Origin: Flavobacteriales bacterium
GTDB taxonomy: Bacteria; Bacteroidota; Bacteroidia; Flavobacteriales_F; PHOS-HE28
Reading direction: 5' to 3'
DNA length: 64,000 bases
Assembly: GCA_030584065.1 (NCBI GenBank)
Contig: CP129489.1
Span: 892,640 to 956,639 of the forward strand
The notes under the pieces were generated by a model that saw only the letters and a program-made list of their open reading frames with translations, was not told the DNA's origin and did no database searches. Below, piece by piece: positions 27,011 to 37,515 of this stretch. Made by a program: the position numbers and the translations under genes. How positions within the stretch are numbered: position 1 is the stretch's first letter; every line of letters starts with the position of its first letter.

Positions 27011-27119
27011 AGTGCTCATCTCCGCGCGTGGATCACCGAAGGAATTGCCCCATCAGCAAGCGGACAGCCTGACCCACGGGTAAGGCTGCGAGGTGGGAGA
27101 GGGGGCATGCCCCAGTACA

Positions 27120-27764
27120 TTACACTTCCGCCTTCGACTTCTTGGCCTTCCCGTTCCCGTTCGCCTTCCGCTCTTCCTTCGCATCCACGGGTTTCCGGAG
27201 CACGATCCGTCCGTCGAACACATCGATGACCTGCGGTTTGCCGGTCTCCAGGGTCCCTGCGATGATCTGCTTGCTCAATTCGTTCAGCAGCTCCTTCTGG
27301 ATCATGCGCTTGATGGGTCGGGCGCCGAACTGCGGATCGAAGCCGGCCGAGCCGATGTGCTCGATGAGCTCTTCGCTGGGGATGAGCGAGTAGCCCTTCT
27401 CCTCGAGCTTGGCGAGCAGCTGGTGCAGCTGCAGCTTCACGATCTCCCGCACATCCCCCTGGCTCAGCGGACGGAACATGATCAGTTCGTCCACGCGGTT
27501 GAGGAACTCGGGCCGCACGGTCTTGCGCAGCAGCTCCATCACCTCGCGCTGGGTCTTCTCCACGACCTCCTCCACGTTCTTGCGCTCCAGCCCTTCGAAG
27601 TTCTCCTGGATGATGTGCGAGCCGATGTTGCTCGTCATGATGATGATGGTGTTCTTGAAGTTCACCACGCGGCCCTTGTTGTCGGTTAGGCGGCCATCGT
27701 CGAGCACCTGCAGCAGGATGTTCCACACGTCAGGGTGGGCCTTCTCGATCTCGTCGATCAGCAC
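27120..27764 (-). pseudogene. clpB: Displaced 3-prime fragment of clpB (last 214 codons)
   Basis: Starting within the second Walker B region ([13 protein letters not shown]), this frame matches the end of ClpB to its last residue. Against the complete ClpB at 34574-37231 I count 21 substitutions over 214 residues; both end in KSKAEV. It lacks the N domain, the first ATPase module, the middle domain and the second Walker A, so it cannot work as a disaggregase. Homology stops abruptly at 27764, matching position 35218 in the intact gene. The level of divergence argues against a very recent in-place duplication; acquisition from a relative is the better explanation. Confidence 0.9.
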
Positions 27765-27847
27765 GCGAGTGAATGCGGAAGAAGCGCAACGAATCAGAGT
27801 TCTATATTGGACTCGAATCCGGGAATTATTCTTGAACTACATTGGCC

Positions 27848-28165
27848 ATGCTTCGCATCGTTGCCTTCATCTGCGCCGCCCTGCTCTTCCTGGCACTGGC
27901 CCGGCTACCGATCGGCTACTACACCTTCCTGCGCATCGCCGTGACCATCGGGGCCTTGCTCCTCCTGCACCACCACTGGACCCGGAGCGGGTTCAATGTC
28001 TGGGTGGTCCTCTTCGGGGCGGTAGCCATCCTCTTCAATCCCATCCTCCCCATCTACCTCGGTGACCGCTCCCTGTGGCTGCCGTTCAACATCGCCGGAG
28101 GTGTGCTCTTCGTGGTGGCTGGTTTCGCGATGCCACGTACTTCAGGTCGATCAGGCGATCAATAA
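27848..28165 (+). CDS. Small membrane protein (DUF6804-like)
   Basis: The product has 105 residues from ATG 27848 and three or four hydrophobic helices (IVAFICAALLFLALARLPIG, LRIAVTIGALLLLH, VWVVLFGAVAILFNPILPIY, IAGGVLFVVAGFAM). The central WVVLFGAVAILFNPILPIYL and following DRSLWLP pattern resembles the DUF6804 family of small integral membrane proteins. It is the first gene of the island and lies 15 bp before the PLD-J gene. Role unknown; it may be a membrane partner of the downstream proteins or just a passenger. Confidence 0.75.
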   Translation: MLRIVAFICAALLFLALARLPIGYYTFLRIAVTIGALLLLHHHWTRSGFNVWVVLFGAVAILFNPILPIYLGDRSLWLPFNIAGGVLFVVAGFAMPRTSGRSGDQ

Positions 28166-28180
28166 AGAACGAGACAGAAG

Positions 28181-29560
28181 ATGGCGAGGGTAACCACCTA
28201 CTTCACCGGCAAGGACGACCTGCAGGCTGTGCTCTTGGTGCAACTCGCCCTGGCGCGCACCTCGGTCCACGTGGCCGTCGCCTGGTTCACCGACGTGCCC
28301 CTGTTCAACAAGCTCCTGGAGCGCCAGCGGAGCGGTGTCCACGTGGAGCTCATCATCACGAAGCACGAGTTCAACGACACCTGCGCGAACGACCACGAGG
28401 CGATCGCGGAGAACGGCGGGCTCTTCCTGGAGCTCGGCTCGGAGGACCAGCTGATGCACCACAAGTTTTGCATCATCGACCGCAAGGTGCTGCTGCAAGG
28501 GTCGTTCAACTGGACGAAGCGGGCCAACCAGAGCAACAACGAGACCCTCACCTTGATCGAGGAGGACCCGGCGAGCGTGAACCAGTTCCTGGCGGAGTTC
28601 GAGCGCCTGAAGCGGAACGCAGGGGTGGTGGAGGCCGAGCAGCAGCTCCAGTTGGCCCGGGTCTTCGAGTACTTCAAGCTGCTGCGTGCCTTCATCGGCC
28701 TGGGCCGTTCGGCGGACGTGAACGCCCATGCGCACGAGCTGAGGGGTGTGTCCGGATTGGACGGCATCGTGGACCTGCTACTGGCCGGTGAGTACGAGCA
28801 GGCGACGAAGGCCATGGAGGCCTTTGAGAGGCGGCACCAGGCCATCGTGAACGTCTCGGCGGTCGAGCGGGAGTGGCTACTGAGCCGCATACGCATGCTG
28901 AACGCCATGGTCTCTCAGCTCGTTGGGGAACGGGCCGAGGTGGAAGCGCTCGTTGACCGGTACAACCACCGCTTCCGGGTGGAGCTGAACCCCATCCTGC
29001 TGAAGATCCTCGAGCTGAAGAAGAAGATCTACGAGAAGCTCAAGAAATACGGGGTCGACGACCCGACCTATGCTGATCTGGAGGAGGAGTTCAAGAAGGT
29101 GAACGAGGAGTACGAGGCGGAGCGCCTGGTGGTGGTGGCCGACCTGAGCGAGGAGGACCAGAAGGACATCAAGGCCATGTACCGGGAGGCGGCCACACTG
29201 TGCCACCCGGATTCGAGCAAGTGCGTGTTCAGCGACAAGAAGGAGGCGGAGGAGGCGTTCGGCAGGCTGAGCCAGGCCTACAAGGCGAACGATATCCTTA
29301 CCGTGCGCGAGATCCTGGCGCAACTGCGCAAAGGCACTTGGCAGGGCGTGAATGAGCTGGACGAGATGGAGACGCTCCGCGCGCAACTGGCAACCCTCGA
29401 ACACCGCTACCAGAACCTGCTGCGCGAACTCGAGTTGGTGAAGACGACCGAGCCCTACCGAACGATCGAGAAGTTGGATGATTGGGATGCCTATTTTCAA
29501 GGCCTGCGCACCGAGTACGAGGCGCAGTACGAGCAATTGGCCAGTGAATACACCAAATAG
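28181..29560 (+). CDS. Phospholipase-D-like nuclease domain with coiled coil and J-domain-like segment
   Basis: The product has 459 residues. Residues 1-130 form one PLD module: HxKxxxxD is present as H93, K95 and D100 in HHKFCIID, followed by QGSFNWTKRAN and NNETLTLI. A single HKD motif means it would work as a dimer, as in Nuc-type endonucleases. Residues 180-320 are charged and helical with a strong coiled coil. Residues 320-372 resemble a J-domain with HPD at 342-344 (REAATLCHPDSS, then EEAFGRLSQAYKA). A further coiled coil closes the protein. The combination suggests a nuclease that recruits an Hsp70-type chaperone; that part is inference. Confidence 0.8.
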   Translation: MARVTTYFTGKDDLQAVLLVQLALARTSVHVAVAWFTDVPLFNKLLERQRSGVHVELIITKHEFNDTCANDHEAIAENGGLFLELGSEDQLMHHKFCIIDRKVLLQGSFNWTKRANQSNNETLTLIEEDPASVNQFLAEFERLKRNAGVVEAEQQLQLARVFEYFKLLRAFIGLGRSADVNAHAHELRGVSGLDGIVDLLLAGEYEQATKAMEAFERRHQAIVNVSAVEREWLLSRIRMLNAMVSQLVGERAEVEALVDRYNHRFRVELNPILLKILELKKKIYEKLKKYGVDDPTYADLEEEFKKVNEEYEAERLVVVADLSEEDQKDIKAMYREAATLCHPDSSKCVFSDKKEAEEAFGRLSQAYKANDILTVREILAQLRKGTWQGVNELDEMETLRAQLATLEHRYQNLLRELELVKTTEPYRTIEKLDDWDAYFQGLRTEYEAQYEQLASEYTK

Positions 29561-29568
29561 GTCCGGAC

Positions 29569-30333
29569 ATGGGCGATGAAATACAGAAGGTACCTGGTAC
29601 GGGAGGCGTTCCGTCAACACCGGGAGGGGCAAGCCGATTCGGGCAGAAGTTCCAGCAGTCCGCACAGGGAATAACGGCTCCCATGGAGATCCCCCGGGTC
29701 TTCCACCAGCTGGTGATCTTCCTGCTGGATGGTTCCGGCTCAATGACCGCGCTGGGACGGACCGGCCGAACCAAGGGCCAGGAGCTCCACGATGCGATGT
29801 ACAAAGTGCTTGAGCGTTTGAGAGCGAGCAAGAACAAGAACTGCTTTGACATCAGTTGCCGAGTGTATTCCACGGATGAGAAAGAGATCATCGCTCAACA
29901 GACCGTTACGGAGATCGACCTTGCGAAATGGTCCTTCGACCCGGCCGATCACATTGAGGCTGAGGAGACGCACGCGGCAACCTCCTTGGAGGCGGCCTTC
30001 GGACAGGCCAGAGGCTACTTGCGCGATAGAACGGACAAGCAGAGCAACGCGCTCATCATTCTGTTGACCGATGGGGATTTCCATGATGAGGACGAGGTGG
30101 CCGAAGTGGCGGACAGGATCAGGGAGCATCCGGGGATGTCGTTGGCGACCATCTTCTATGAGACCGAGCTGACACCGGAATGGCAGGAGCTCGTGGGCAG
30201 CGACTACAATGAGAATTGTGCTGCGGTGCTGCGGAGCATGGCCACGGAGGAGGCGGACTTCGCCTCCACGGTGGATCCGGAGGCCATCCGCAACCACATG
30301 ATCAAGAGCATCAGCAAAACGTCGCAGGTCTGA
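29569..30333 (+). CDS. von Willebrand factor A domain protein, TerY-like
   Basis: The product has 254 residues, one vWA domain from about residue 45 to 245. The metal-ion-dependent adhesion site is complete: D54, S56 and S58 in DGSGSM, T138 in the HAATS loop, and the aspartates of TDGD (168, 170). The N-terminal 40 residues are rich in Gly, Pro and Gln and probably disordered. There is no signal peptide, so it is cytoplasmic. Position directly before a PP2C phosphatase and a kinase is the arrangement of the TerY-P triad, where the vWA protein is thought to be a regulator or scaffold. Confidence 0.85.
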   Translation: MGDEIQKVPGTGGVPSTPGGASRFGQKFQQSAQGITAPMEIPRVFHQLVIFLLDGSGSMTALGRTGRTKGQELHDAMYKVLERLRASKNKNCFDISCRVYSTDEKEIIAQQTVTEIDLAKWSFDPADHIEAEETHAATSLEAAFGQARGYLRDRTDKQSNALIILLTDGDFHDEDEVAEVADRIREHPGMSLATIFYETELTPEWQELVGSDYNENCAAVLRSMATEEADFASTVDPEAIRNHMIKSISKTSQV

Positions 30334-30334
30334 G

Positions 30335-31135
30335 ATGTACTTCGCCGCCGGGCATATCGCCGTCAAGAAGGATCAGGACAGGTCCCTTTGCATTGCGCAC
30401 GAGCAGTATCGGCTCGTTGCGCTCTGTGACGGTATTGGCGAGTTCAAGGATTCAGGCAGGGTGGCTGAGTTGCTCGTTGAGGCCATCCGGTCGGAGATGC
30501 CCGAGCACCGGACCGAGTTGGATGGGATCGTCAGGTCGGCCCAGGAGGGGGTCAAGGCAGGAGGGCTCGTCGGCGGAACCACCTTGCTCTGCTGCTATCA
30601 GTGCGGCAGGCACGCAAGCGATGAGGTGACGGTCGCTCACCTGGGCAACGGCGCGATATTCCATCTGGCCGGTGACTTCTATGAACGCGGACCGTCGCAG
30701 GTGCCCTATCGCATGCACCATGTCGTGCTACCCCATGTGGATGAGCAGGGTGTGCTCGTGCGCCATGTTTCCCATACGAGCGGCACTCCGGAGTTGGCCC
30801 TGTCGGAAACCACTCTTCGTTTGAATTCGCCCCACGGTGATATCCTCCTGCTCGTTACGGACGGGATCGCCACGTTGGAGGAGGAGATGGTGACCCGGGA
30901 CCCGAGCGGGACGCTCTGGCGGTTGCAGGCCTCCGCGATGCAGCAGGTCCTGGAGCAGCTGCACACATTCCTCTCCGGTGTTCGCGCTCCGATGACCGTT
31001 CAAACGGACCTCGGTCGCTTCGTCGCTTCCACGTTGCAGGGCTTGAAGGAGAGCGGTGTGCTCGAGGACGATGCATCCCTGGGCGTGGTGGTCACGGAAG
31101 CCGTCCTGTCGCACTACAACAAGCAGCGCAGCTGA
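30335..31135 (+). CDS. PP2C-family serine/threonine phosphatase
   Basis: The product has 266 residues. PP2C motifs are recognisable in order: metal-binding ALCDGIGEF (D32, G33), GGLVGGTTLLCC, VAHLGNGAIF, LLLVTDGIATLEE, and the C-terminal DDASLGVVV. Loss of the usual first RxxNED motif (here KKDQDRSLCI) makes it a divergent member. It lies 1 bp after the vWA gene and overlaps the kinase start by 1 bp (TGATG at 31133-31137), so the three are translationally coupled. It probably reverses phosphorylation by the downstream kinase. Confidence 0.85.
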   Translation: MYFAAGHIAVKKDQDRSLCIAHEQYRLVALCDGIGEFKDSGRVAELLVEAIRSEMPEHRTELDGIVRSAQEGVKAGGLVGGTTLLCCYQCGRHASDEVTVAHLGNGAIFHLAGDFYERGPSQVPYRMHHVVLPHVDEQGVLVRHVSHTSGTPELALSETTLRLNSPHGDILLLVTDGIATLEEEMVTRDPSGTLWRLQASAMQQVLEQLHTFLSGVRAPMTVQTDLGRFVASTLQGLKESGVLEDDASLGVVVTEAVLSHYNKQRS

Positions 31136-33159
31136 TGGGCCTTTTGCGCAACATCCATGCGATCTCATCCGTCCCATTCGGACCCAACACGCCGTTCACA
31201 GCAGCGACAGAGATCGCCATGGAGGAACAGCCCCTGAACCAGGGCGGTTTCGGTGCGGTGTATCGCCTGCACACGGTGGATGGCCGGTCTGTCCGAGGCG
31301 CACTGGTGAAGGTGATGTTCAATGAGGAGCATGGTGAACACGCCTACGAGACGGTGCGCCTGTTGCACGAAAAGTTACGGGGCCGTTTCCATGACGCATT
31401 GACCATCGAGCATCCCGAACTGTTGGGCATGCCCTTCTTCTTATTCAGGGCAGAGAATGATGAGGGTGAGCCGGTCGTGGCCATGGCCTTGTGCGATCTA
31501 GGAACGCTGGGTTTTGAGGACATGGGAAGTGACAGTTGGGATGCTGCTGCCTACTTCCGCAACACCAGCCCATTGGAGAAGCTGCACCTGGCCTACCAGT
31601 TCGCCCGTACCGTCGATGTGCTGCACAACATCGGATTCCTCCATGCCGACCTCAAGGACAAGTCGATCTTCCTGAACACCCGGCAACCACAACTTGCGCT
31701 GATCGATTTCGATTCGGGCTTCCATCCGGACACTCAAGGTGCCGCAAGCACCCTGGGCGCCCTCAGCCAATGGGCCAGTGCAAAGCTCAGGGGGTGGATC
31801 AAGAGCAAGCAGAGCCCTGGCCAGCTTTCGATCGATGACCGACAGGACGAGGAGCGCTGGGCGCTCGCTTCGGGTGTATTCGAGTTGCTGTCGGGGGTAG
31901 CTCCCTTCTTCTTCCTCAGGGATGCAGACGATAACTCCATCGCCAAATACCTCAAGGAGCACAAATGGCCGGAAGTGGATCCGAACTCAGCGTTGGTGAA
32001 CCCCGCGAACCTGGCATACCACGAGGCCATGCTCCTCTTGCTCCAGGAGCTGGAGGATTCCGGTGGAAAGGACCTGGTAGCAGCGTTCAAGCGGACCTTC
32101 AACCGGGGTTACTACAAACCCGGTGCAAGGCCCAAGCCGGCGGAGTGGAAGGTTTTATTGGGCAACCTGTGCAAGCAACATGTGGGCAGCCCGGCGATCA
32201 CCAGCCTTCAAGGGGATCGCGACAAGATCCACCGAAAGGGAGAACCGGTCAACTTGACCTGGAGCGCCACGCAGCACCGCGCATTGCTTCTCGATGGGAG
32301 GCCACTTCCATTTGGTGCCACTGCTGCGGAGGTTGCCCCCAGCGATACCACGGTGTTCACCCTAAAGGCCATCAGCGACTTCGGTACTGCGGAATCCACG
32401 TTCAAGGTGGAGGCCGTCAAAACCCCGCCGGTCATACACGGGTTCAATGCGAACAAGCATCTGCGCGATACGCTTGAGCCTGTTGTTCTTGAATGGGCGA
32501 CCACGGACGCCGTCGAGATCCGCATACTGCCGGTCGGAAGCACGGTGGAACTGAGCGGCACGATCGAGGTACTACCAGAGGCGCCCACCACATATGAACT
32601 TCAGGCCTATGGTGGCTTCGGCCAATTGGCCGTTGCGCACGTGCACGTGGAGGTCGCCAGTCCTCTTATCGAGTCGTTCGACTGGGAGGTGAATCTCCTG
32701 AAAGGCATCGACAATGTGGACCTGATCTGGCGCACACGCAACACGGTGGAAGTGCTCATTGAGGGCCAACCGGGTGTCCATCCGCCGGAGGGTGTGCTGC
32801 ACGTGCCCATCCGCCAGGGAACGCCATTCACCCTTACGGCCAAGGGGCTTTTCGGCACAACGAGTGCCTCGCTCAAAGCCTATCCCTTCCCGGTACCCGT
32901 GATCGAGCAGATGGCCATGGACTTCCCGCTGATGAACATGACCACCGAGGTGACCATCCCTGCCGCGACCTTCCTTGTCACACCCTTGGACAGGTCCCTT
33001 CTGGCTCAAGCACCCACGCCCAGGGACCTTGGCCCCGGGTACCTGCGCGACCAGATGGGCAAGGAACTTTCGGCCCTCAACGAATGGCAGGGCCACTGGA
33101 TCCTATCGGGCAGAGCCATCTGGGATCGCATCACTGGTAACAAGACTGACGCAGATTGA
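31135..33159 (+). CDS. Serine/threonine protein kinase with C-terminal Ig-like repeats
   Basis: The product has 674 residues. The kinase domain covers about residues 28-330: glycine loop NQGGFGAVYR (35-44), lysine K59 in ALVKVMF, catalytic segment HADLKDKSIFL with D172, and D191 in LIDFDSG replacing DFG. The usual catalytic-loop asparagine is replaced by S177, so activity is uncertain. Residues 350-595 hold three related beta-sandwich segments of about 75 residues, each with a VxLxW strand and a G-x-F/G-x-x-A pattern. No signal peptide or membrane helix is seen, so these Ig-like units are probably cytoplasmic. It is the third member of a vWA-PP2C-kinase triad. Confidence 0.85.
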   Translation: MGLLRNIHAISSVPFGPNTPFTAATEIAMEEQPLNQGGFGAVYRLHTVDGRSVRGALVKVMFNEEHGEHAYETVRLLHEKLRGRFHDALTIEHPELLGMPFFLFRAENDEGEPVVAMALCDLGTLGFEDMGSDSWDAAAYFRNTSPLEKLHLAYQFARTVDVLHNIGFLHADLKDKSIFLNTRQPQLALIDFDSGFHPDTQGAASTLGALSQWASAKLRGWIKSKQSPGQLSIDDRQDEERWALASGVFELLSGVAPFFFLRDADDNSIAKYLKEHKWPEVDPNSALVNPANLAYHEAMLLLLQELEDSGGKDLVAAFKRTFNRGYYKPGARPKPAEWKVLLGNLCKQHVGSPAITSLQGDRDKIHRKGEPVNLTWSATQHRALLLDGRPLPFGATAAEVAPSDTTVFTLKAISDFGTAESTFKVEAVKTPPVIHGFNANKHLRDTLEPVVLEWATTDAVEIRILPVGSTVELSGTIEVLPEAPTTYELQAYGGFGQLAVAHVHVEVASPLIESFDWEVNLLKGIDNVDLIWRTRNTVEVLIEGQPGVHPPEGVLHVPIRQGTPFTLTAKGLFGTTSASLKAYPFPVPVIEQMAMDFPLMNMTTEVTIPAATFLVTPLDRSLLAQAPTPRDLGPGYLRDQMGKELSALNEWQGHWILSGRAIWDRITGNKTDAD

Positions 33160-33160
33160 T

Positions 33161-34426
33161 ATGGCACTAGCCCGTTTCCTTTTTAAGCCGATCGAACGCC
33201 TCTTTCTCTGGTCCTCGGGTGCCGACATTGAGGTGTTGGACCAAGTTCCCACCGAGAAGAGCAAGTACTACGGTATTGGCGGCACTATAGTCTTCACGGC
33301 CTTGATGGCGAGCTTCGCTGGTGGCTATGCCTTCTTCACGGCCTTCAAGGATCCTGCGCTCTCTGTCTTCTTCGGCCTATTCTGGGGCGCATTGATCTTC
33401 AATCTGGACCGTTACATCGTCTCCTCTTTCGGCGTCGGCGACGGCAAACGCACCATATCCCGGCAAGAGGTGCTGGAGGCGGCGCCCCGGTTATTGATGG
33501 CTGCATTGCTGGGTTTCGTTATCGCCACGCCGCTCGAACTCAAGTTGTTCGAGGGAGAGATCGAAGCAGAGGTGCAGCAGCAGGTAGCTCTTGCGAACAA
33601 GCGAATTGAAGGAAATTATGATCTCGCGAGCGATAAACAACTTGTGCTGTGGAAATCAGAGTTGGCTGACATTTCCAACCGGCTTGCCAATATGCAGAAT
33701 GACGAGGATAGGAAGCGAGTTGAAAGGGATTCTGCTGATTCTGCTCAAGAAAGGGAGTGGGTTTACGGTTGCAGTCAGCACCCGCCCGGAAAGGGCCCCC
33801 ACCATACCGAGCTGATGAGTAGATATATCGCAAAGAAAAGCGAGTACGATGCCCTGTTGGTGAAGAATGCGCCTATACAAGACGACCTAAGGTCCAAGCA
33901 AAGTGCACTGAACGCTAAGGCGGAGAAGCGGGAAACCGATCTTTTGAAAAGCAGTCAAGCAGATATCCATGAAGCCGATAAGAGCCGCGGACTTATGGCA
34001 AGATTGGAGGCCTTGGGTTCACTCACCCAACGCAGCGCCGCCATTTGGTGGGCCAAGTGGCTGATCACCCTGCTGTTCATCTTCGTGGAGATCGCCCCGG
34101 TCCTGTTCAAGATGATGACCGAGCGCGGACCCTACGACGACATCGTGGAGCAGAAGAAGTACGAGGTGTTGCTCAACCAGCAGCTACGTCGCTCCAAGCT
34201 GAATGAGGACGCCAACGCAATGCTGAAGGCGAACCGCAACAACCAGGAGGAGTTCCTTCAAGCCGAGATGTTGAAGAACCGGGAGATGCTCCAGCTGATC
34301 GTAGAGGCGCAGAAGGAGATCGCGGCGGAGGCGATCAAAGCTTGGAAGGAGGAGCAGAAGGAGAAGATGAAGGACAACGTGGCGAACTACATCAGGACGA
34401 ACGGTACGGGGCAGAATCTGGCATGA
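33161..34426 (+). CDS. DUF4407 membrane protein with long coiled coils
   Basis: The product has 421 residues from ATG 33161, 1 bp after the kinase stop. Three membrane helices lie near the N-terminus (about residues 38-60, 66-87 and 108-128), with NLDRYIVSSFGVGDG between, and a fourth at about 297-318 (WLITLLFIFVEIAPVLFKMM). The 165-residue loop between helices three and four is charged, cysteine-poor and probably extracytoplasmic coiled coil. The C-terminal 100 residues are a highly charged cytoplasmic helix. This layout is DUF4407. The loop region (33590-34000) is visibly richer in A and T than its surroundings. Confidence 0.85.
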   Translation: MALARFLFKPIERLFLWSSGADIEVLDQVPTEKSKYYGIGGTIVFTALMASFAGGYAFFTAFKDPALSVFFGLFWGALIFNLDRYIVSSFGVGDGKRTISRQEVLEAAPRLLMAALLGFVIATPLELKLFEGEIEAEVQQQVALANKRIEGNYDLASDKQLVLWKSELADISNRLANMQNDEDRKRVERDSADSAQEREWVYGCSQHPPGKGPHHTELMSRYIAKKSEYDALLVKNAPIQDDLRSKQSALNAKAEKRETDLLKSSQADIHEADKSRGLMARLEALGSLTQRSAAIWWAKWLITLLFIFVEIAPVLFKMMTERGPYDDIVEQKKYEVLLNQQLRRSKLNEDANAMLKANRNNQEEFLQAEMLKNREMLQLIVEAQKEIAAEAIKAWKEEQKEKMKDNVANYIRTNGTGQNLA

Positions 34427-34573
34427 TGCAATATGTGTCCCGTTGTGCCGCTGCCTCAAGCCCGGACAAGTCCGGCTAAAGCGGAGCACCCGGCCCCGCC
34501 CTCATCCGAGTAGCGCGGCCGGGCGCAGCCCGTTGATCGTATGTCATGGAGGGCGGGGACACGCCCCGCTCAC

Positions 34574-37231
34574 TCACACCTCCGCCTTGCTCTTCCTCGC
34601 CTTCCCGTTCCCGTTCGCCTTCTGCTCTTCCTTCGCATCCACGGGCTTCCGCAGCACGATCTTCCCATCGAACACGTCGATCACTTGCGGCTTGCCGGTC
34701 TCGAGCGTGCCCGCGATGATCTGCTTGCTCAACTCGTTCAGCAGCTCCTTCTGGATCATGCGCTTGATGGGGCGCGCACCGAACTGCGGATCGAAGCCGG
34801 TGGTGGAGATGTGCGCGATCAGCTCCTCACTGGGGATGAGGTGGATGTCCTTCTCCTCCAGCTTCTGCAGGAGCATGTGCAACTGCAGCTTCACGATCTC
34901 ACGCACATCCGCCTGGCTCAGCGGACGGAACATGATCAGCTCGTCCACGCGGTTCAGGAACTCGGGACGTACGGTCTTGCGCAGGAGGTCCATCACTTCG
35001 CGCTGGGTCTTCTCCACCACGGCGTCCACATCCTTCTTCTCCAGGTTCTCGAAGTTCTCCTGGATGATGTGTGAGCCGATGTTGCTCGTCATGATGATGA
35101 TGGTGTTCTTGAAGTTCACCACGCGGCCCTTGTTGTCGGTGAGGCGGCCATCGTCGAGCACCTGCAGGAGGATGTTCCACACGTCGGGGTGGGCTTTTTC
35201 GATCTCGTCGAGCAGCACCACGCTGTAGGGCTTGCGGCGTACGGCCTCGGTGAGCTGGCCGCCTTCGTCGTAGCCCACATAGCCCGGAGGCGCCCCGACC
35301 AGCCGGCTCACGCTGTGGCGTTCCTGGTACTCGCTCATGTCGATGCGCGTCATGGCGTGCTCGTCGTTGAACAGGATCTCGCTGAGCGCCTTGGCCAGCT
35401 CCGTCTTACCAACGCCCGTCGTACCCAGGAAAATGAAACTGCCGATGGGGCGGCGTTCATCGCCCATGCCGGCTCGGTTGCGGCGCACGGCATCCGCCAC
35501 GGCGCGCACGGCCTCATCCTGGCCGATCACACGCTTGTGCAGCTCGTCCTCCAGCTTCAGGAGCTTGGTGCGCTCGGCCTCCAGCATGCGGGTGACGGGG
35601 ATGCCGGTCCAGCGGCTCACCACGGCGGCGATCTCCTCCACGTCCACCTCCTCCTTGATCATCTTGCTCTCGGCCTGCAGCGCGAGCAGTTCCTGCTTGG
35701 CGCTCTCCAATTCCTTCTCGGTCTCCTGGATGCGGCCGTAGCGGATCTCGGCCACCTTGCCGAAGTCGCCCTCGCGCTCGTACTGCTGCGCCTGGTGCTT
35801 CAGCTCCTCGATCTGGTCCTTGGCGCTGTTGATGCGGTCCACCAGCTGGCGTTCGCTTTCCCAGCGGGCCTTGAAGCCATCGCGCTGGCCGCTCAGTTCG
35901 GCGAGCTCCTTGTTCAGTTCGGCCAGCTTGGCCTCGTCGTTCTCGCGCTTGATGGCCTCACGCTCGATCTCCAGCTGCATGATGCGGCGGTCGATCTCGT
36001 CGAGCTCCTCGGGCTTGGAGTTGATCTCCATGCGCAGCTTGCTCGCGGCCTCGTCGATCAGGTCGATGGCTTTGTCCGGCAGGAAGCGGTCGGCGATGTA
36101 GCGCGTGCTCAGCTCCACGGCGGCGATGATCGCGGCGTCCTTGATCAGCACCTTGTGGTGGCTCTCGTACTTCTCCTTGAGGCCGCGCAGGATCGAGATG
36201 GCGTCCTCGCGGGAGGGCTCGTCCACCATCACTTTCTGGAAGCGGCGCTCCAGGGCCTTGTCCTTCTCGAAGTACTTCTGGTACTCGTTGAGCGTGGTGG
36301 CGCCGATGCTGCGCAGCTCGCCGCGTGCCAGGGCGGGCTTCAGGATGTTGGCGGCGTCCATGGCGCCTTCGCCACCACCCGCACCCACCAGGGTGTGGAT
36401 CTCGTCGATGAAGAGGATGATGTTCCCTTCCGAGGCGATCACCTCCTTCACCACGGCCTTCAGGCGCTCCTCGAACTCGCCCTTGTACTTGGCGCCGGCG
36501 ATCAGCGCGGCGATGTCGAGGCTGAAGACCTGCTTGCCCTTGAGGTCCTCGGGGATGTCGCCGCTGACGATGCGCTGCGCGATGCCTTCGGCGATGGCCG
36601 TTTTACCCACACCGGGCTCACCGATCAGGATCGGGTTGTTCTTGGTGCGGCGGCTGAGGATCTGCAGCACGCGGCGTATCTCCTCGTCGCGGCCGATGAC
36701 CGGATCGAGCTTGTTGTCCTTGGCGAGCTGGTTGAGGTTCTTGGCGTACTTGTTCAGCGCGTTGTAGGTCTCCTCCTGGCTCTGGCTGGTCACCTTGCTG
36801 CCCTTGCGCAGCTCCTTGATGGCCGCGATCAGGTCCTTTTTAGTGACGCCGTTGTCCTTGAGCAGCTGGCTCACGGTGTCGCCGCTGTCCAGGATGCCGA
36901 TGAGCATGTGCTCCACGCTGGCGAACTCATCGCCGAACTCCTTCAGCGCGGCCAGCGCCTTGGTGAGCGCATCGCTGCTGTAGCGGGAAAGGCTGATCTG
37001 CCCGCCGCTCACCTTGGGGTATTGCCCGACGATGCGGTCCAGCGCCTGCGTCATCGCGGGCACGTTCACGTTCATCTTCTTCAGCAGGAAGGGGGTGACG
37101 TCGGGGTCCACCTCCAGGATGCCCTTGAGCAGGTGGCCGTTCTCGAGCATCTGCTGGCCGTATCCGGTGGCGATGGTCTGCGCCTGCTGGATGGCCTGCT
37201 GGGAGCGGACGGTGAATTTGTTGAGGTCCAT
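34574..37231 (-). CDS. clpB: ATP-dependent chaperone ClpB
   Basis: The product has 885 residues from ATG 37231; a TTG nine codons earlier is less likely. All ClpB parts are present: the N domain ([17 protein letters not shown]), first Walker A GEPGVGKT with [12 protein letters not shown], a middle coiled-coil domain of about 120 residues (residues 400-520) that marks ClpB rather than ClpA or ClpC, second Walker A GTTGVGKT with [13 protein letters not shown], and the C-terminal domain. It resolubilises protein aggregates with DnaK. Residues from about 671 onward are duplicated in the fragment at 27120-27764, so the 3-prime quarter may be of foreign origin. Confidence 0.95.
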
Positions 37232-37515
37232 GGGGTTCGGTCTTGTGGTCGTTGCCAATCACTGCGAGCGCAGCGAGGAAGGCTTGTGGGCTTCTTGGGA
37301 CGCTCCCGGCTCATCAACCCCCGCTCCGCGACAAAGCAACGGCGCTTTTGACAGGTGAAGTTCGCATGCGATGCCAGAAAGTCTTAGGCAGGCAGGGCTT
37401 TCCTGCAGCTTTGGCTGAAACAATGGCGGAATTCTCGCACGCCCCATCGCATCCCCGAGGCAACGGATCGGCCACGAGGGATATCTTCACCCTGAGCAAT
37501 CCGTTGGCAATCGGC

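Follow-up and report, generated by a model that had tools for sequence, protein, structure and literature searches.

Can a PLD nuclease and an Hsp70-recruiting J-domain be combined in one bacterial protein, and what would such a protein do? The question was raised by a preliminary description of the window, by which we mean the whole 64,000-nucleotide stretch of a Flavobacteriales genome analyzed here. It had proposed that one gene encodes a single-HKD PLD nuclease joined through a coiled coil to a J-domain-like segment, and had taken the adjacent clpB gene as a hint at a chaperone partnership. The gene, referred to as PLD-J in the following, occurs in a single copy in the 3.92-Mb genome according to a genome search. 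The features of the locus are collected in Table 1.

Table 1. Features of the PLD-J locus, with positions counted from the first nucleotide of the window.
Feature	Position	Strand	Evidence and remarks
Truncated copy of the clpB 3' end (duplication)	27091..27764	-	674-column alignment with the end of intact clpB, 87% identity
DUF6804 small protein, first operon gene	27842..28165	+	Pfam DUF6804 E 1.1e-22; also upstream of PLD-J in L031
PLD-J protein, 459 aa	28181..29560	+	PLD domain 20-143; helical and coiled-coil region ~150-315; J-domain core 324-384; C-terminal coiled coil 395-458
HKD active site and GSFN, residues 93-110	28457..28510	+	Pattern H-x-K-x4-D-x6-GSxN; kept in homologues
J-domain core, residues 324-384	29150..29332	+	Helix II, HPD loop, helix III, extra helix; Pfam DnaJ, profile to PDB J-domains, model helices
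HPD motif, residues 342-344	29204..29212	+	Invariant, 21/21 relatives
VWA-domain protein, TerY-like, 254 aa	29569..30333	+	Pfam VWA E 4e-10, vWA-TerF-like E 5e-4; PADLOC TerY E 0.004, partial
PP2C-type phosphatase, 266 aa	30335..31135	+	Pfam PP2C_2 E 4.5e-8, 33.3 bits vs cutoff 24
Protein kinase-like domain with C-terminal repeated beta segments (presumably Ig-like), 674 aa	31135..33159	+	Pfam Pkinase E 2.1e-6, under cutoff; 1-nt overlap with PP2C stop
DUF4407 membrane or coiled-coil protein	33161..34426	+	Pfam DUF4407 E 1.6e-74; also last in L195, adjoins PLD gene in L068
Intact clpB, other cassette edge	34574..37258	-	ORF; 79-96% identical to clpB of congeners

Pattern matching confirmed one complete HKD in the protein (HxKxxxxD at residues 93-100, H93-K95-D100), with a matching GSxN motif, here GSFN, at residues 107-110. 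The full HKD-GSxN pattern was found in none of 20,000 shuffles of the protein, and Pfam PLDc_2 was matched with E 6.6e-22. The whole protein, modeled with AlphaFold2 (mean pLDDT 85.8, pTM 0.47), shows a PLD fold followed by helices, and the region between the PLD domain and the HPD motif, described earlier as a coiled coil, was likewise predicted as long helices. With this fold and both motifs present, the domain belongs to the single-HKD PLD proteins. Foldseek matched it to Nuc, NucT and Zucchini (E 3e-8 to 4e-7); the top match was mouse MitoPLD/Zucchini, annotated as a cardiolipin hydrolase, and the nucleases Nuc and NucT matched about equally. The domain is Nuc/Zucchini-like and, judged from fold and motif, a putative nuclease. 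A label as one of the defence families DrmC and DpdK was considered and rejected, as the domain reached only E ~1e-8 with these, far under the curated cutoffs.

The HPD motif was confirmed at residues 342-344, and the segment around it matched Pfam DnaJ above the gathering cutoff (E 1.4e-7, 31.9 bits vs 27.8), with residues 325-368 covering model positions 12-51 of 63; the scanned relatives scored 18.5-24.6 bits, under this cutoff. A profile of the segment was searched against the PDB and retrieved J-domains, led by 2ej7, a human DnaJ-homologue J-domain (E 8e-10), and including DNAJB6, DNAJB8, E. coli DnaJ (8e-8), Sec63 and auxilin, all spanning the core only. The window segment is included two times in the profile; this should have no effect on the picture. 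In the whole-protein model, the HPD loop lies between helices II and III (residues 324-341 and 353-368), followed by an extra, non-canonical helix at 372-384. Helix I, expected before helix II, was absent: the Pfam and PDB profile matches both begin at helix II, and residues 317-320 are low-confidence coil in the model. Because helix I is absent, the segment is classed as a J-domain core and not as a canonical J-domain. When modeled in isolation, the segment gave a weaker model than the whole protein (pLDDT 73.5), and a fold search with it returned no J-domains among the 50 matches listed (best Z 7.6), which we read as matches to a common three-helix arrangement.

Conservation of the segment was concentrated at a few positions. 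HPD is kept in all 21 homologous J segments, the others being 15-37% identical to that of the window, and residue 334 is Tyr or Phe in all of them. Residue 335 is Lys or Arg in 20 of the 21, and F360 is mostly kept. Positions 334-335 align with Tyr25-Lys26 of DnaJ, known contacts of DnaK. DnaJ R36-N37 is not kept in the window segment, and the position after HPD, which is Lys or Arg in DnaJ, is Ser. HPD arose by chance in 0.7% of 20,000 shuffles of the protein; a chance origin was rejected on account of the 21/21 conservation and the profile matches to J-domains. Judged from its sequence, the core may engage Hsp70 through HPD; DnaK (dnaK) is present in the genome, as are three further J proteins. 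The earlier proposal of a PLD domain and a J-domain in one protein is hence borne out by sequence, HPD conservation and recurrence in distant bacteria, but what is joined to the PLD domain is a core without helix I and not a full J-domain.

The complete arrangement of PLD domain, coiled coil and J core was recovered in other Bacteroidota (L031, 77% identical, L032, L035, L041, L044, L049/L081 and L097) and in the Gammaproteobacteria L033 (Volucribacter) and L034 (Chromatiaceae), so that PLD and J module are joined in at least nine lineages, the two gammaproteobacterial ones included. Two further copies are a PLD-J protein with a degenerate HKD (L138) and a fragment (L091), and L098 and L099, which lie at contig ends of genome G154, look like the halves of a single gene. 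Apart from L031, the relatives are mostly 27-31% identical to the window protein. A wider coiled-coil-J-coiled-coil family exists without PLD; the J module was matched (E <=1e-6) in 59 of the 395 phylum genomes, with ordinary J-domain matches counted as well. A plasmid or phage origin of PLD-J was considered and rejected: among the plasmid and phage matches listed, similarity to the window protein is confined to the PLD part, and two viral_contigs scans returned no relatives. Nothing describing a PLD nuclease-J-domain fusion was found in the literature searched on J-domains with PLD or TerY-P. The fusion is real and apparently undescribed.

At least five PLD-J lineages adjoin genes other than those of the window, e.g., the gene of a tryptophan-rich repeat protein. 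This protein, built of 'LPWSxELIExFxDxWDW' repeats, follows PLD-J in L033 (10507-11865), L034 (10301-11977) and L099 of G154 (708-2048). Tryptophan-rich repeats are also fused to the PLD-J protein with a degenerate HKD (HNF, GSHD) in L138 (937-2931). In the gammaproteobacterial locus L146 (5902-7797), a J module without PLD lies upstream of the gene of an LRR protein, both being on one strand.

The reading of clpB as a hint at chaperone partnership did not hold, and clpB was rejected as a functional partner. The cassette that carries PLD-J sits between a duplicated, truncated clpB 3' end and the intact gene, with the two 3' copies (27091-27764 and 34546-35218; duplicated length 674 bp) flanking it in direct orientation. 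It was not found in 17 congeners, several of whose assemblies are incomplete, and the left flank of the cassette in the closest relative, L031, is free of clpB, the right side lying beyond the contig. Two congeners carry a clpB 3' fragment of their own a few kb past clpB, also in direct orientation (L171, 11777-12175; L175, 3450-3923). In L171, clpB and the fragment are separated by the gene of a type IIG restriction enzyme-methyltransferase (PADLOC E 0, 1278 bits). Because fragments recur in these congeners, with the type IIG enzyme between the copies in one of them, the clpB 3' end looks like a recurrent insertion site in the genus for accessory, partly defence, genes, and this accounts for clpB lying next to the cassette. 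In none of the eight congeners examined was the gene to the left of the clpB fragment found next to clpB, so that no exact empty site emerged. Just past DUF4407, a short stretch (34439-34505) recurs at several further sites in the genome and in many congeners and is apparently a dispersed intergenic repeat.

More informative as neighbours are the VWA, PP2C and kinase genes that follow PLD-J. They belong to an operon with the order DUF6804, PLD-J, VWA, PP2C, kinase and DUF4407, with successive gaps of 15, 8 and 1 nt, an overlap of 1 nt and a gap of 1 nt; the last gap is based on the probable DUF4407 start at the ATG at 33161, 1 nt past the kinase stop, chosen from its start context. The operon was compared with TerY-P, which combines a TerY-type VWA protein, a PP2C phosphatase and a kinase. 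A PP2C gene is present by its Pfam PP2C_2 match and scores weakly against the PADLOC TerY-P model (E 0.008). The VWA domain is clear from Pfam, but the PADLOC TerY match is weak and partial (Table 1), with strong matches in the sister loci L195 and L100. The window kinase did not match STK_OB, i.e., a kinase with a C-terminal OB-fold or zinc ribbon, in PADLOC at E 0.1, and for this reason the operon is called TerY-P-like and not TerY-P. No Pfam match was obtained for the kinase tail. A full-length homologue of the kinase in L195 scores above the Pkinase cutoff. Since the catalytic loop of the window kinase reads HADLKDKS, with Ser in place of the usual Asn that L195 retains, the protein may be a weak kinase or a pseudokinase.

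Sister loci linked the parts of PLD-J to such genes in several layouts. The first five operon genes are kept in L031, where the contig ends inside the kinase gene. L195 encodes TerY, PP2C, STK, a PLD protein without J, an STK with the same tail as the window kinase, a 198-aa protein and DUF4407. In L100, TerY and PP2C come after a J module without PLD, and a divergent STK-WG gene is also present (PADLOC TerY 6e-59, PP2C 2e-10, STK_OB 5e-42). PP2C overlaps PLD-J by 4 nt in both L044 and L049, and a divergent kinase-LRR gene lies ~1.2 kb from PLD-J in L041. These layouts indicate that TerY-P-type genes are recurrent neighbours of the PLD effector as well as of the J module, whether the two occur together or apart. 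The same queries, of limited sensitivity, found no TerY-P genes in 12 control neighbourhoods of the weaker J family. The J module as a general TerY-P part was rejected, as a J protein lies within ~1.5 kb of TerY in only 1 of 17 TerY-bearing genomes of the phylum Bacteroidota (G249). At a further locus, L068 (3739-10013), the beta-rich tail of a PLD protein resembles that of the window kinase, and genes for DUF4407 and a DpdF-like helicase come next; this is apparently a related system that lacks both J and kinase.

We hypothesize, with a confidence just short of an even chance, that the operon (27842-34426) is a TerY-P-like, phosphorylation-controlled module for stress or phage defence, in which PLD-J would be the effector and its Hsp70-recruiting J core a guard of chaperone occupancy. 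Two PLD domains would pair, as in Nuc, to form an active nuclease, and the VWA protein would assemble the complex. The kinase and PP2C would set the state of the effector, a form of control suggested because the operon holds both enzymes, and the J core would dock host Hsp70 (DnaK). Hsp70 recruitment might then keep the nuclease inactive for as long as DnaK is not drawn away by infection or proteotoxic stress, or it might deliver the nuclease to chaperone-bound phage proteins; the former, a guard of chaperone occupancy, is favoured. A role in defence is suggested because of the TerY-P relatives and the accessory position. Counted against such a module are the weak PADLOC matches of VWA and PP2C, the missing STK_OB match and the Ser for Asn of the kinase, the at least five PLD-J lineages with other neighbours and the fold search with the isolated segment.

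Other functions of the J core would dispense with sensing altogether. Hsp70 could be recruited for protein maintenance, folding, remodeling or disassembling the coiled-coil PLD protein and its partners as part of a general stress-response operon. J-domains commonly remodel complexes, and such a role would suit a coiled-coil-J-coiled-coil family that also occurs without PLD and lacked TerY-P genes in the 12 control neighbourhoods; the accessory, patchy distribution and the linkage to defence-type genes nevertheless fit conflict better than housekeeping, and we consider this explanation doubtful. It is quite unlikely, in our opinion, that the HPD hairpin is a J-like remnant on which another operon protein docks and which does not engage Hsp70. 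The absence of helix I, the Ser after HPD and the outcome of the isolated-segment fold search would agree with a remnant, but HPD is the Hsp70-activating motif, and it has been kept, as have the aromatic and basic residues of helix II and, for the most part, F360, despite the low overall identity. We know of no other reason for HPD to be kept.

The nuclease assignment itself has a competitor, in which the PLD domain acts on membrane phospholipid and not on nucleic acid, and the protein is a membrane-damage effector working with DUF4407 and DUF6804 as membrane proteins. The genes of these two proteins flank PLD-J, and the top structural match carries the cardiolipin hydrolase annotation. Against this, Nuc and NucT match about equally well, the defence relatives DrmC and DpdK score next, and Zucchini has been reported as a nuclease. 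We consider an action on phospholipid very unlikely.

If HPD is functional, a defence module with PLD-J as its effector would join Hsp70 recruitment, a TerY-P-type phosphorylation switch and a nuclease effector, which are usually studied apart, and bacteria may use chaperone recruitment to sense attack or to restrain a nuclease. PLD-J becomes more than a variant of a known theme only if Hsp70 contact controls the nuclease. A broader proposal, which we deem unlikely, is that there is a class of immune effectors with a J core of their own and Hsp70 as the sensor: DnaK at HPD would silence the nuclease, phage or proteotoxic load would titrate DnaK, and the kinase-phosphatase-VWA switch would set the threshold for release.

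Among known systems, J-domain proteins (Hsp40, DnaJ) share with PLD-J helix II, the HPD loop and helix III, the Pfam DnaJ score above cutoff and the profile matches to solved J-domains. Unlike DnaJ, PLD-J lacks helix I as well as the G/F and zinc domains, and the helix that follows helix III differs. The single-HKD PLD nucleases Nuc, NucT, Zucchini/MitoPLD, DrmC and DpdK, the latter two from defence, have the same fold and one HKD with GSxN, whereas the window protein carries a coiled coil and a J core in addition and scores far under the NCBIfam cutoffs for NucT, DrmC and DpdK.

The TerY-P triad consists of a TerY-like VWA protein, PP2C and a Ser/Thr kinase, with STK-OB in the antiphage version (PMC11090510), and the window encodes VWA, PP2C and kinase in the same order in a tight operon. 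All three PADLOC models of the triad have good matches in the sister loci L195 and L100. In the window, by contrast, VWA and PP2C match weakly, the tail of the kinase consists of repeated beta segments with no identified OB-fold or zinc ribbon, and PLD-J and DUF4407 are added. TerY-P triads accompany restriction systems, and TerY-P-like modules are described as stand-alone antiphage systems (PMC11090510, citing Gao et al. 2020). A defence that reads the DnaJ/DnaK system is already known from bNACHT25, which needs DnaJ and the DnaJ-DnaK contact for phage defence (PMC12169576). Its authors suggested that other, uncharacterised antiphage systems may guard host chaperones (PMC12169576), and the present operon is a concrete candidate for such guarding. 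The idea is common to both, but bNACHT25 uses host DnaJ in trans, whereas the putative effector of the window has a built-in J core.
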